A stretch of 64,000 bases of DNA from the NCBI GenBank assembly GCA_028284395.1, contig JANQRV010000637.1:1-64000 (forward strand). The letters are read 5' to 3'. Every line of letters begins with the position of its first letter. The stretch's first letter is position 1. This DNA is from Saprospiraceae bacterium (lineage in GTDB: Bacteria; Bacteroidota; Bacteroidia; Chitinophagales; Saprospiraceae). Under the pieces are notes generated by a model, which was not told where the DNA came from, did no database searches, and saw only the letters and a list, made by a program, of their open reading frames with translations. Position numbers and translations under genes: made by a program. This document shows, piece after piece, positions 9,311 through 59,894 of the stretch.

Positions 9311-10399
9311 ATGCTTAAGAAAATTGACCATTATATCATAGGTAAGTTTCTAAGGACTTTCTTTTTTACTGTCCTTATATTTACGATGATTTCAGTGGTC
9401 ATTGACTTTGCTGAAAAGGTTGAGAAATTCATTGAAGAACCCATAACGACCTATGAAATTGCTTTTGGGTATTACCCCAATTTTATTCTCAACATCATAG
9501 GCATTCTTTGGCCCCTTTTTACTTTGATTGCAGTGATCTTCTTTACCTCCCGGATGGCCTATTCCTCGGAAGTAATTTCAATCTTCAATGCGGGAGTGAG
9601 TTTTCGAAGATTAATGTACCCCTACATGGTGGCCGCCGCCTTTATTGCTGCTCTTCATTTCGTCGGTAATCACTATTTCATTCCTGAAGGAAACAAGACT
9701 AGATTAGATCTGACCTATAAGTATTTGCACAAGAACGATGACAAGGGAAAGACACAGGATGTACACCTCTTTCTTTCGCCCGATACCAAAGTTTTTATTC
9801 ACAATTTTTATAAGCTACAAAGTAGGGCTAATAAGTTTCGCCTCGAACGATTTAAGGATCATCAACTAGTATATATTCTGAAAGCAAATAGTGCCAAATG
9901 GCTGGAGGAAGAAGAAAAGTGGCGATTGGTCAATTACGAAATTCGAACTTTCGATGAAAGGGGAGAAGACCTCATTATTGGAAATGGAAAACAAATCGAT
10001 ACCACGCTCAACTTAACTCCGCAGGACTTTGTAGATTACAAAGAGCAGCATACGATGATGACGACGCCCGAATTAAAGGAGTATATCAACTACCTAAATA
10101 GTCGAGGCGCCGGTAATACAAAAAAGTATGAGAGTGAACTTTATCGGCGAACGGCTGCAGCTTGCACCAATTTTATCCTTACAATCATTGGTTTGGCCAT
10201 TGCTGCTCGGAAGGTCCGCGGGGGAAGAGGACTTCAATTAGCACTTGGAATTGGCCTTTGTGCAATCTTCATGTTCTTATCTCAGTTTTCCATTGTCTTC
10301 GCTATGGGGAACATTCTTTCACCACTTCTGGGTATTTGGATGCCCAATATTGTTTTTTCCTTCATTGCGCTTTATCTGGTGTTAAACGCACAGAAGTAA
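9311..10399 (+). CDS. LptF/LptG family LPS export permease
   Basis: A 362-aa inner-membrane protein of the YjgP/YjgQ (LptF/LptG) family, the transmembrane part of the ABC transporter that extracts LPS and feeds it to the Lpt bridge. It has the typical opening MLKKIDHYIIGKFLRTFFF, two N-terminal membrane segments, a loop with ‘VISIFNAGVSFRRLMYPY’ (the coupling-helix region), a periplasmic beta-jellyroll of about 180 residues, and three C-terminal membrane segments. LptF and LptG cannot be separated from sequence alone here. The partner gene is not in the window. It follows tgt after 62 bp. Confidence 0.9.
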   Translation: MLKKIDHYIIGKFLRTFFFTVLIFTMISVVIDFAEKVEKFIEEPITTYEIAFGYYPNFILNIIGILWPLFTLIAVIFFTSRMAYSSEVISIFNAGVSFRRLMYPYMVAAAFIAALHFVGNHYFIPEGNKTRLDLTYKYLHKNDDKGKTQDVHLFLSPDTKVFIHNFYKLQSRANKFRLERFKDHQLVYILKANSAKWLEEEEKWRLVNYEIRTFDERGEDLIIGNGKQIDTTLNLTPQDFVDYKEQHTMMTTPELKEYINYLNSRGAGNTKKYESELYRRTAAACTNFILTIIGLAIAARKVRGGRGLQLALGIGLCAIFMFLSQFSIVFAMGNILSPLLGIWMPNIVFSFIALYLVLNAQK

Positions 10400-10447: not shown

Positions 10448-10663
10448 TTTTGTTTAACAAAATGCTTTAGAACTCTAATCTTTGTTCAACAATTTTCATT
10501 TTTTTCTGAAAATAAAAAATATTTTAATTGATTGTTTTTCAGAATTTTGTGTTCCTTGTGAATGAACCAGGAGATAAATAGTAAGGAAATTTGCTGATTC
10601 GGTTTTGATTTTGTTTAACTATTCTGTATATTTGTTCAACAAAATAATAACGGGGTTAAACAA
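10448..10663. promoter_or_regulatory. Cluster of TTGTTYAACAA palindromes upstream of the ECF sigma gene
   Basis: Three perfect copies of the palindrome TTGTTYAACAA occur at 10450-10460, 10482-10492 and 10632-10642. The first extends to TTTTGTT-T-AACAAAA (10448-10462). Two further partial copies lie at 10611-10619 (TTGTTTAAC) and, inverted, at 10655-10663 (GTTAAACAA). The third perfect copy overlaps the -7 box and the presumed start site, which suggests an operator. The binding protein is unknown. Confidence 0.6.
10604..10634 (+). promoter_or_regulatory. Bacteroidota-type promoter of the first ECF sigma gene
   Basis: TTTG at 10604-10607 (-33) and TATATTTG at 10627-10634 (-7) are separated by exactly 19 bp, matching the Bacteroidota housekeeping consensus. 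The predicted start site is near 10641, about 30 bp before the ATG at 10670. Confidence 0.75.
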
Positions 10664-10669
10664 TATATT

Positions 10670-11191
10670 ATGTCTCAAGTAGATTTCTATTCCAAGTTCG
10701 ATGAAATGACGATCCTTCTCCATTCATTCGCTTTCAATTTGACCAAAAATGTAGAAGAAGCGAAAGATCTTTTTCAGGAAACTGCGTATCGTGCTTTAAC
10801 TAATATGGAGAAATTCAGACCAGGTACGAACTTCAAAGCCTGGTTATTTACCATTATGAAAAACATCTTCATTAACAATTATCGAAAGAAGATGAAGGCG
10901 AATACAATCATGGATTCTACCGAGAATAATTATTACATTAATTCTGGTAATCAGTCAATCAAAAATGATGGCGATTCCAATATGATGATGGAGGAATTGA
11001 CGAAAATGGTCCGAGAGTTGGAGAGCAGCATTAAAGTACCCTTTCTAATGCATTATGAAGGATTCAAGTATCAGGAAATTGCCGATCACTTAAATTTACC
11101 ACTAGGTACTGTTAAAAGTCGTATTTTCTTTGCACGGAAAGAATTGAAATCAAAGATTGACGTTCGGTACGCTGGTAATGCCAGAGTTTAA
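10670..11191 (+). CDS. ECF-type RNA polymerase sigma factor
   Basis: A 173-aa sigma-70 family regulator with only regions 2 and 4. Region 2 contains AKDLFQETAYRALTNMEKF and NFKAWLFTIMKNIFINNYRKK. Region 4 contains the helix-turn-helix YQEIADHLNLPLGTVKSRIFFARKEL. The linker holds NNYYINSG, also found in the second sigma gene of this window (58566-59090), so the two are close paralogues. No anti-sigma gene is adjacent. A strong promoter with overlapping palindromes precedes it and a 15-bp terminator hairpin follows, so it is probably a single-gene transcript. Confidence 0.93.
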   Translation: MSQVDFYSKFDEMTILLHSFAFNLTKNVEEAKDLFQETAYRALTNMEKFRPGTNFKAWLFTIMKNIFINNYRKKMKANTIMDSTENNYYINSGNQSIKNDGDSNMMMEELTKMVRELESSIKVPFLMHYEGFKYQEIADHLNLPLGTVKSRIFFARKELKSKIDVRYAGNARV

Positions 11192-11227: not shown

Positions 11228-11274
11228 ATTTGGCAGCAAGGATGTTCCCTAATTCCTTGCTGCCAAATCTTTTT
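11228..11274 (+). terminator. Rho-independent terminator after the sigma gene, directly before mutY
   Basis: A perfect 15-bp inverted repeat (11228-11242 and 11254-11268, core GGCAGCAAGGA) with an 11-nt loop is followed by CTTTTT (11269-11274). It ends immediately before the chosen mutY ATG at 11275, so it could also attenuate mutY transcription. Confidence 0.85.
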
Positions 11275-12342
11275 ATGGAGCATATTAACTTCAATACGAA
11301 TGCCTTCACCAGGCAACTTATCAACTGGTATGACCCATCTGATAGGCAACTTCCCTGGAAGGAAGAGAAAAACCCTTATCTGGTTTGGCTATCCGAAGTA
11401 CTTTTGCAGCAAACCCGGGTTGAACAAGGTCTTTCTTACTACCTACGATTCAAAGAAGAATTTCCGACCATCATTGAAATGGCCAAAGCGTCAGAAGACC
11501 GAATCATGAAATTGTGGGAAGGGCTTGGTTACTATTCCCGGGCCCGGAATATGCATCATACCGCAAAGTACATTGCTTTTGAGTTGGGAGGACAATTTCC
11601 CAATACCATTGAAGAAATCCGTCGACTTAAGGGAGTTGGGCCTTACACGGCTGCCGCTATTGCCTCTTTTGCCTTTGATTTGCCACATGCGGTTGTAGAT
11701 GGAAATGTATATAGGGTATTGTCGAGGGTTTTCGGTATTGCCGTGCCAATAGATACTACAAAGGGTAAAAAAATATTTTTTGACTTAGCGCAATCGTTAA
11801 TCGATCCTAAGCAGCCTGGAGTTTACAACCAAGCGATTATGGATTTTGGCGCGACCGTATGTCAACCTCAAAAACCATTCTGCAAACGTTGTCCCTTCTC
11901 TGATGAATGTCAAGCAAAAAAGGAGAATACGATTTCTCTTTTGCCACGGAAAAGCAAAAAGATAAAGCGCAGAGAGCGATTCTTTCATTATTTGGTGGTG
12001 CGTTATGGCGAACAGAGGTTGATTCGAAAACGGACTGGCAAAGATATTTGGAAAAACCTTTACGAATTTCCATATTTCGAAGTGCCTAGGATGGGGTTCA
12101 ACCAAGAGATCATTCAACAGAATATTTTTTGGGAGAAGGTGGGCTTGAAAGGAAAGGTTTCAATTGACTTTGTAAGTAAGCCCTTTCACCAACTATTGAC
12201 CCATCAGAAAATTGTAGCTGTGTTTTGGGAGATAGATGCCTTAAATACCCCGGAAATTGAAGGAACTGACCTTTTGTTGATCGATAAAAATGACCTTTCT
12301 AACTTTGCTTTCCCAAAGATTATCCACCGCTACTTGGGGTGA
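11275..12342 (+). CDS. mutY: A/G-specific adenine glycosylase MutY
   Basis: About 355 aa. MutY removes adenine mispaired with 8-oxoguanine. Catalytic E41 lies in WLSEVLLQQTRV, and the helix-hairpin-helix motif LKGVGPYTAAAIASFAF is followed by catalytic D142 in AVVDGNVYRVLSR. The 4Fe-4S cluster ligands are C196-x6-C203-x2-C206-x5-C212. The C-terminal third is the NUDIX-like 8-oxoG recognition domain (QLLTHQKIVAVFW). An in-frame ATG at 11230 lies inside the terminator stem and would add residues unlike the family, so I chose 11275. It begins the mutY-ssb-gldE-gldD series. Confidence 0.95.
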   Translation: MEHINFNTNAFTRQLINWYDPSDRQLPWKEEKNPYLVWLSEVLLQQTRVEQGLSYYLRFKEEFPTIIEMAKASEDRIMKLWEGLGYYSRARNMHHTAKYIAFELGGQFPNTIEEIRRLKGVGPYTAAAIASFAFDLPHAVVDGNVYRVLSRVFGIAVPIDTTKGKKIFFDLAQSLIDPKQPGVYNQAIMDFGATVCQPQKPFCKRCPFSDECQAKKENTISLLPRKSKKIKRRERFFHYLVVRYGEQRLIRKRTGKDIWKNLYEFPYFEVPRMGFNQEIIQQNIFWEKVGLKGKVSIDFVSKPFHQLLTHQKIVAVFWEIDALNTPEIEGTDLLLIDKNDLSNFAFPKIIHRYLG

Positions 12343-58565: not shown

Positions 58566-59090
58566 TTAGGCCCTTTCCTTGTGTTGCGCCTTATACATTC
58601 GTTGTAATTTCTTTCTGGCGAAGAAAATTCTACTCTTGATCGTCCCTAAAGGAGCACCTAATTCCTCCGCAATCTCATCGTATTTGAAGCCCTGGTAAGC
58701 CATGATAAATGGGCGGCGAAAATCTTCGTGGAGTGCGTTGATCATTTTCATCAACTCTCCATGAGCAATATTTGTCTCTCCTTCATTGTTCACAACTTTA
58801 TCTCCAGAGTTAATATAGTAGTTATTGGGTGTTTGATCGATGATCATATTCCTACGCACCTTTTTGCGATAATTGTTGATGAATATATTTCTCATGATCG
58901 TTACTGCCCAAGCCTTAAAGTTAGTGCCGGGATTGTACTTATCTGCATTTGTAATGATACGGAGTGCTGTATCCTGATACAAATCTTCCGCATCTACATT
59001 GTTTCCGGTCAACTTTAATGAGAACGCTTTCAGAGACGAACTCACCAAATTTAACTGGTCCGAGATTTGATTTTGCATGGTATAGATCAT
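58566..59090 (-). CDS. ECF-type RNA polymerase sigma factor, paralogue of the one at 10670
   Basis: About 174 aa from the ATG at 59090 (MIYTMQNQISDQLN); an ATG at 59078 is also possible, and the far upstream one at 59177 adds an unrelated segment. Region 2 has AEDLYQDTALRIITNADKYNPGTNFKAWAVTIMRNIFINNYRKK; region 4 has YDEIAEELGAPLGTIKSRIFFARKKLQRM. It shares FINNYRKK and NNYYINSG with the first sigma gene and nearly the same length. No anti-sigma gene is adjacent. It faces an XRE regulator across 267 bp. Confidence 0.92.
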   Translation of the reverse strand: MIYTMQNQISDQLNLVSSSLKAFSLKLTGNNVDAEDLYQDTALRIITNADKYNPGTNFKAWAVTIMRNIFINNYRKKVRRNMIIDQTPNNYYINSGDKVVNNEGETNIAHGELMKMINALHEDFRRPFIMAYQGFKYDEIAEELGAPLGTIKSRIFFARKKLQRMYKAQHKERA

Positions 59091-59179
59091 AGCCGGTGAT
59101 TTTGGTCTGTAATTATTTTTTACAAATCTACCCTTTGGATGATTAAAATGCAAAAATAATTTGCTAAAAAACGACAAAT

Positions 59180-59210: not shown

Positions 59211-59357
59211 TTACCGGAGTTCAGAATTTAAATGTTAATTTCGTTCACTTTCTTAAACCAAAATTTTAAATTTTTGTATTCTATATTGTAAATTTCATCG
59301 ATGACTAAAGGCTGTTTGTCGATAAATGTAATTTTTAATCGTAAAGCGGGATCAGGT

Positions 59358-59894
59358 ATGGCAATAATTAAGGACTCAACTGTTTTTTTGCAGAGTAACA
59401 TTCGCACATTGAGGAAGAGGTTAAGTCATAGTCAGGAAGAACTGGCGCAAAGGATTGGATTGAATCGCGGTAATATTGCCTCTTACGAAAACGGAAGTGC
59501 AGAGCCCAAAATTTGTAACCTACTTAAATTAGCCAATCTTTTCAAAGTGACCATCATCGATCTCACTCAAAGAGATTTAAGTTCCGAAGATACCTACAAT
59601 ACTGCAATACAAAAGTGGCAACAAACGACGGACGCAGAAAAAGAGTTTATTAAAGGATTTATTGATCACTCCAGCGAGATCGAAAAATTTCTACAAAGCA
59701 TTCATACCTGTCAGAAGTACAAGATGAAGTTTGTAGAAAATGTTCCCGATGACGTGAAATTTGCGTTCTACAATTTTGAACAATTGTATGAAGCTACTCA
59801 ATCTTTGCTAAGAGACAACAAGGAAATGATTGGCTTCATTTGTTGTAAGATGAAGGAGCATCAACCAGAAGATACTTCGTTAAACCAAGGTTAA
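59358..59894 (+). CDS. XRE-family helix-turn-helix regulator
   Basis: About 178 aa from the ATG at 59358; an in-frame ATG at 59301 gives an N terminus unlike the family. The HTH_3 domain spans about residues 10-65 (LRKRLSHSQEELAQRIGLNRGNIASYENGSAEPKICNLLKLANLFKVTIIDL). The C-terminal 100 residues are helical and contain several cysteines (HTCQKYKMKF, IGFICCKMKEHQ), with no known ligand domain. It is divergent from the ECF sigma gene, with the 8-bp inverted repeat between them. Confidence 0.85.
   Translation: MAIIKDSTVFLQSNIRTLRKRLSHSQEELAQRIGLNRGNIASYENGSAEPKICNLLKLANLFKVTIIDLTQRDLSSEDTYNTAIQKWQQTTDAEKEFIKGFIDHSSEIEKFLQSIHTCQKYKMKFVENVPDDVKFAFYNFEQLYEATQSLLRDNKEMIGFICCKMKEHQPEDTSLNQG

Follow-up and report, generated by a model that had tools for sequence, protein, structure and literature searches.

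Upstream of an ECF-type sigma factor gene, in a stretch of Saprospiraceae DNA of 64,000 nucleotides (contig JANQRV010000637.1; analysed as a whole and called the window hereafter), copies of the palindrome TTGTTYAACAA cluster around a predicted promoter. The locus thus raises the question of what this cluster represents, which protein would recognize it and whether the sigma factor is its user or its target. The features concerned are collected in Table 1.

Table 1. Features at the sigma factor locus and elsewhere in the window
Feature	Coordinates	Strand	Remarks
LptG-like permease gene, upstream	9311..10399	+	TIGR04408 172 bits, below curated cut-off 240
Distal palindrome pair (10450-10460, 10482-10492)	10450..10492	.	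Outer halves 27 bp apart
-33 element TTG	10605..10607	+	N19 before -7 box; sequence read directly
Dyad operator 1 (predicted), TTGTTTAA-N16-TTCAACAA	10611..10642	.	Half-sites flank -7 box
-7 element TATATTTG (TAnnTTTG)	10627..10634	+	16 bp from dyad 1 start
Dyad operator 2 (predicted), TTGTTCAA-N16-TTAAACAA	10632..10663	.	Covers predicted start site and 5′ leader
ECF-type sigma factor gene, 173 aa (proposed regulated gene)	10670..11191	+	TIGR02937 84.9 bits (cut-off 42.9)
mutY (adenine glycosylase), downstream	11230..12342	+	TIGR01084 329 bits (cut-off 286.5)
Paralogous ECF sigma gene	58566..59177	-	55% identical over matched stretch; negative control

The conserved element and its promoter

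Direct reading of the window gave exact TTGTTYAACAA at 10450-10460, 10482-10492 and 10632-10642, the three perfect copies of the initial annotation, and the last of these shares the final TTG of the -7 box, in line with the overlap described there. Two partial copies had also been counted: one is present at 10611-10621 with a single mismatch, and the second is probably only the half-site GTTAAACAA at 10655-10663. With up to one mismatch, we observed 10 matches in the window (both strands) versus 5.5 expected, a number reached by 6 of 100 window shuffles. Genome-wide, TTGTTNAACAA occurred at 41 sites and the reversed control at 21. Of these 41 sites, 34 fell within mechanical ORFs of at least 60 aa. 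Because of these 34 sites the 11-bp palindrome was rejected as a regulon marker; alone it is a weak marker, and the excess over coding DNA that had been expected of it half fails. The cluster is real and not due to chance, yet it is part of a larger element, the unit having first been drawn too short.

In the aligned upstream regions of 30 sigma genes (from the own genome and relatives), the recurring element was an inverted pair, TTGTTTAA ... TTAAACAA. When spacers of 6 to 30 were scanned in this first set with a threshold of 14/16 positions, spacers 16 and 17 yielded 16 and 14 matches respectively, the next best being 6 (8 matches) and 27 (5 matches). This defines the conserved unit as a 32/33-bp dyad, TTGTTTAA-N16/17-TTAAACAA, with its halves inverted. 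Two such dyads, each with 0 mismatches to TTGTTNAA-N16-TTNAACAA, overlap in the window through the palindrome TTGTTCAACAA and are laid over the -7 box and the start region; overlapping pairs of the same kind were found at loci L221 and L225.

A second set comprised 80 sigma orthologues, 68-78% identical, from named records (Saprospiraceae, Lewinella, Neolewinella, Phaeodactylibacter and others named only to higher rank), a few of which may duplicate genomes of the first set. The dyad (at least 14/16 positions) was present in 63 of these 80 promoters versus 1.6% of Markov shuffles, and the threshold was not reached in the other 17. Spacer 17 was found in 60 regions versus 1 for the everted order. 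The conservation upstream of sigma orthologues proposed in the initial annotation is thus borne out, but for another unit than the 11-bp palindrome named there, which occurred in 19 of the 80 promoters (shuffle mean 0.5, maximum 2). The spacing of the distal palindrome pair lies about one helical turn above the main spacing and corresponds to a secondary peak in the orthologues (12/80 regions versus 3 for the everted control); this pair is a possible auxiliary site. The spacings 6, 16/17 and 27 seen in relatives hint at helical phasing.

An upstream TTG is an element of the Bacteroidota sigma-A promoter. At 10605-10634, TTG-N19-TATATTTG meets this pattern (TAnnTTTG with upstream TTG), and the orthologous promoters, once aligned, share a TTG located 20 bp ahead of the -7 box. 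A -7 consensus of the TAnnTTTG type is reported for Flavobacterium psychrophilum (PMC9723704). The Bacteroidota promoter of the initial annotation was therefore retained, though as a predicted promoter of the primary sigma-A type and not as a distinct ECF promoter. TAnnTTTG was found near the dyad in 56 of the 63 dyad-bearing promoters (null 8.6%, from shuffles), and in 51 of the 63 at one of two fixed offsets without overlap, 16 in 36 promoters and 38 in 15. When aligned on the -7 box, the offset-16 class, which is also the register of the window, reads TTG-ta-TTTTGTTTAAC-taTTncn-TAnnTTTG-a-TTCAACAA, so that the halves flank the -7 box. The offset-38 class is shifted by 22 bp (two helical turns) and its halves flank the -33 box. 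Either placement, around -7 or around -33, would be expected to hinder RNA polymerase.

The downstream gene encodes a short protein with sigma-70 regions 2 and 4 (Sigma70_r2, PF04542; Sigma70_r4_2, PF08281). No anti-sigma gene was found beside it, its flanks being the lptG-like gene and mutY, which are present in 43 and 48 of the 63 full-length orthologous loci, respectively. No dyad was detected upstream of the paralogous sigma gene of the window (best 12/16); a divergent Xre-type HTH gene at 59301-59894, recognized by eye, may regulate that paralogue.

A candidate regulator of the CarH/LitR type

The initial annotation had stated that neither regulator nor regulon was known from the window; with whole-genome searches both can be proposed, a CarH/LitR-type MerR protein and a set of crt, rhodopsin, fasciclin and sigma genes. 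For the regulator the proposal comes from comparative genomics. The own genome carries one MerR homologue, on contig C60 (L073:7978-8862) and not on the contig of the sigma gene. Its N-terminal MerR DNA-binding domain scored 51.8 bits with PF13411 (cut-off 21.6) and its C-terminal region 20.3 bits with B12-binding_2, under the cut-off of 23; the homologue at locus L034 reached 39.2 bits with the latter, above cut-off. The own protein aligns to Thermus CarH (5c8d) over residues 2-227 (phmmer, E 9e-16).

The B12-ligating histidine, which we take to be H177 in Thermus CarH, is aligned with a glutamine in the own MerR protein. In the order sample (the closest 30 of 114; alignment-dependent) 20 of the 30 proteins keep it, and the 10 proteins without it all belong to the window's family, where 1 of 11 keeps it. 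Among 28 further closest family members (of 54 MerR-positive genomes; again alignment-dependent) we counted Gln in 25, Asp in 2 and His in 1. Similarly, a second conserved histidine is mostly replaced by Asn in the Saprospiraceae proteins. Because Gln replaces the B12-ligating histidine, the own protein was rejected as a B12-type CarH, and B12-based light sensing by it appears unlikely. The conservation of the glutamine suggests a changed function rather than decay.

According to a review of light regulation in Myxococcus (PMC8156234), the CarH repeat is nAnnTnnACAn, present in three or four tandem copies that overlap the promoter. The 11-bp half-site observed here, TTGTTTAAnTn, fits the reverse complement of this repeat, with a weak T at position 10 (only 46-57%). 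These CarH-like units overlap the promoter element TAnnTTTG, but the strong conserved halves are inverted and not tandem direct repeats as published for CarH sites.

We then searched 149 genomes of the order for sigma (E 1e-30), MerR (1e-15) and phytoene synthase, and obtained matches in 114, 114 and 118 genomes, respectively. MerR and sigma co-occurred (100 genomes with both, 14 and 14 with a single one, 21 with neither; p 5e-8). Perfect dyads numbered 130 versus 2 for the reversed control. They were present in 61 of the 100 genomes with both genes and in 10 of the 14 with MerR but without a sigma match, and in only 2 of the 14 with sigma but without a MerR match and 2 of the 21 with neither: the presence of dyads follows MerR more closely than it follows sigma. 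Among the 61 family genomes, TTGTTNAAN{16,17}TTNAACAA was found in 38 of 54 with MerR, leaving 16 without a site under this pattern, versus 1 of 7 without MerR.

The same trend was observed directly upstream of sigma, where 74 of the 81 regions from MerR-carrying genomes had the dyad (at least 14/16): 24/24 in three other families (f18, f20 and f3; regions hand-chosen from the 100 both-gene genomes), 25/30 in the first set and 25/27 family loci. Without a MerR match, 4 of 17 regions carried it (3/16 in 15 genomes, plus G195/L202). As the assemblies of these four carriers are incomplete (G077 83%, G136 74%, G142 68%, G195 72%), a MerR gene was likely missed in them. Within f18 alone the dyad was present in 4/4 regions with MerR versus 0/7 without, at the same threshold. 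Since the genomes with and without MerR are related within groups, these tests overstate independence, including the p of 5e-8 for upstream dyad versus MerR presence. Paralogues may account for the sigma matches of G017 and G093 (47-51% identity). The seven MerR regions without a 14/16 dyad (G068, G079, G129, G147, G086, G182 and one copy in G151) all belong to the family of the window, and one good half-site is preserved in some of them.

In five family genomes with MerR (L018, L020, L021, L022 and L025) no good dyad was seen upstream of sigma; some keep the half-site GTTCAACAA, adjoining TTGCCTAA or TTATCTAA. The operator may have drifted there together with a divergent MerR.

The MerR gene lies divergently beside the sigma gene at L034, L037 and L041. 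Outside the window's family, 78 genomes were tabulated by hand (those of about 84 for which sigma and MerR matches are both listed); 57 of them have MerR and sigma no more than 3.5 kb apart, and crtB lies within 4 kb of sigma in at least 29 of these 78 (among 31 hand-picked crtB matches). Inside the family linkage is rare, with MerR within 3 kb in 4 of the 80 named loci. Dyads also precede the MerR genes themselves at L162, L164, L188 and L189. No dyad was detected at the own MerR promoter (best 11/16), and MerR autoregulation was accordingly rejected for the own genome, though it has the matching site in some relatives.

Candidate target genes

In the own genome (11.15 Mb, 653 contigs), TTGTTNAAN{16,17}TTNAACAA occurred at 8 sites versus 1 for the control, and 7 of the 8 lie upstream of genes, two of them at the window sigma gene. 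Among the others, one is located 58 bp upstream of crtI-crtB and one 53 bp upstream of a fasciclin-domain gene. The eighth (contig C236) lies within an ORF and was taken as chance. Only sites with 0 mismatches were counted, because searches with up to two mismatches did not usefully exceed the controls (196 versus 169 and 140 versus 157) and were uninformative. A single one-mismatch dyad, upstream of a beta-carotene dioxygenase (Blh) and rhodopsin gene on contig C26, was accepted, and only for its position and genes; the other one-mismatch sites were rejected. Of the own-genome sigma paralogues examined, one carries the dyad and five, including that of the window, do not. Carotenoid, rhodopsin, fasciclin and sigma genes can thus be proposed as candidate targets of MerR.

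Three further perfect dyads deserve description. On contig C530 the dyad (L200:1838) lies between divergent genes for a fasciclin and a cyclic-nucleotide-binding (Crp-like) protein (L200:856-2510); cited titles mention Crp/FNR-family proteins that work with LitR in Thermus. On C517 (L196:1625-2254 and L231) a sigma paralogue, 58% identical, stands under the dyad, followed by a flavin amine oxidase, by oxidoreductase-like ORFs and by a gene for a PAS-like protein, the final three being recognized by eye only; this cluster is possibly a second light-stress operon. On C372 the dyad (L197:1747) lies about 15 bp upstream of a 74-aa ORF (L197:1793-2017) that holds sigma region 2 only and runs into the beginning of a patatin gene; possibly this ORF is a truncated sigma gene with a retained operator.

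The 61 family genomes contained 81 dyads versus 18 for the control. Of 30 family loci taken, 19 lie before a sigma orthologue, 1 before crtI, 2 before fasciclin genes and 8 before others. Similarly, in 30 loci of the order sample the dyad precedes sigma in 17, MerR only in 2, crtI in 1 and other or unclear genes in 10. At L180, L187, L219, L221, L224 and L227 the dyad falls within a mechanical ORF whose start precedes the sigma homology; it was counted as upstream, as was the dyad on C517. Fasciclin-domain proteins recur as dyad targets, in family relatives (L205, L228) and in the own genome (L199, L200).

Proposed mode of action and relation to known systems

From the computed dyad, promoter register, MerR co-occurrence and shared own-genome operator we infer MerR binding, repression and a releasing signal. 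We consider it likely that the element is the operator of the CarH/LitR-type MerR repressor encoded on C60, which would occlude the sigma promoter until a light or photo-oxidative signal arrives. Two inverted halves, 32/33 bp from outer to outer end, would bracket the -7 box, with the second dyad over the start region. In the dark or ground state, bound MerR would keep primary-sigma RNA polymerase off the ECF sigma promoter. MerR would be released by a signal, for which the target genes and the CarH relatives suggest light or photo-oxidative stress as most likely; the sigma factor would then be made and, in parallel, the carotenoid, rhodopsin/retinal and fasciclin products whose genes carry the same operator. 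The sigma factor would form a second tier of the response. Dyad and MerR together would probably constitute a light- or stress-responsive switch.

A MerR protein bound to the same dyad could instead activate, in the manner of classical MerR proteins, by remodelling a promoter whose spacer is too long. The left half indeed lies between -33 and -7 elements spaced 19-20 bp, and MerR proteins are described as repressing or activating from sites within or overlapping promoters (PMC8156234). Occlusion, however, fits better than one fixed activating geometry with the 15 of 63 promoters in which the -7 box is 22 bp further off and the dyad brackets the -33 box, as well as with the second window dyad over the start region; moreover, CarH and CarA are repressors (PMC8156234). 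Activation is for these reasons unlikely in our view.

We give far less credit to two readings in which MerR has no part. The initial annotation had left a choice between a repressor-controlled and an autoregulatory operon, and the repressor-type operator before the sigma gene stands by its conservation in orthologues. Autoregulation, in which the ECF sigma factor would itself use the dyad as promoter or control element, would agree with the location of the dyad at the sigma gene and with the presence of sigma in 63 of 75 genomes that carry a perfect dyad. But the element is symmetric, dyads are kept in 10/14 MerR-only genomes versus 2/14 sigma-only ones, the upstream regions of sigma mostly lack it where MerR is absent, and five own-genome sigma paralogues are without a dyad against one with it. 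Since dyads follow MerR and most sigma paralogues have none, autoregulation was disfavoured and seems highly improbable; the sigma factor is probably a target of the dyad, not its user. Just as improbable is an unlinked dimeric regulator other than MerR that would bind the dyad and whose co-occurrence with MerR would be incidental. The own-genome MerR gene does not adjoin the sigma gene, and one dyad is shared with the Crp-like gene on C530, as such a regulator might predict; against it, the half-site fits the published CarH repeat, MerR and dyad are absent together within f18, and some MerR genes have upstream dyads of their own.

CarH/LitR repressors and light-linked ECF sigma factors are already known. 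The system proposed here, with MerR as repressor, resembles the CarH/LitR (CarA) repressors of Thermus, Myxococcus and Bacillus in its MerR DNA-binding domain and a C-terminal region that aligns to CarH, in an operator placed over the promoter with a half-site matching the CarH 11-bp repeat, and in carotenoid genes as neighbours and targets in relatives. It differs in that the repeats form an inverted 32/33-bp dyad instead of tandem direct copies, that an ECF sigma gene is a main target, and that the own protein and its closest relatives have the B12-ligating histidine replaced, mostly by glutamine. In this last respect it resembles class II LitR of Pseudomonas, where PmlR2, a CarH-like repressor thought unable to bind B12, has a short LOV partner (PMC9758184). 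As described in that source, a CarH relative can work without B12 through such a partner; however, class II LitR keeps only the helical bundle and receives its light signal from the LOV protein. The Myxococcus carQRS system likewise places an ECF-type sigma factor, CarQ, in a light-carotenoid circuit (PMC8156234), but CarQ is described as held by an anti-sigma factor, whereas the window sigma gene has no adjacent anti-sigma gene and its control appears transcriptional. Within Bacteroidota, light-induced carotenoid synthesis in Chryseobacterium lacus shows that such genes exist in the phylum; that study detected no car or lit operon genes and names a hypothetical protein as the regulator only by way of speculation (PMC7064467).

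For the Bacteroidota operator, the inverted layout, the sigma target and the B12-ligand loss in the family we found no report in the open-access papers searched, most subscription papers lying outside this scope. One tentative interpretation, to which we give slightly less than even weight, is that the Saprospiraceae CarH-type repressor gave up B12 but retained its operator, ancestral in Bacteroidota. Scattered ECF sigma, carotenoid, rhodopsin-retinal and fasciclin genes would now form its regulon, under a light or redox trigger of another kind; the repressor might then represent a sixth, chromophore-free or partner-driven class of LitR.

Light-induced pigment synthesis has been reported in Bacteroidota, in the one such paper found without an established regulator (PMC7064467). 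Our analysis offers a concrete candidate for the regulator, a precisely defined operator and a list of targets, all testable in culturable relatives, and named strains of Neolewinella, Lewinella and Phaeodactylibacter carry close sigma orthologues. In addition, a B12 photoreceptor of the Saprospiraceae seems to have parted with its cofactor ligand but not with its operator, so that a change of trigger, away from B12 sensing, could be investigated in this family.
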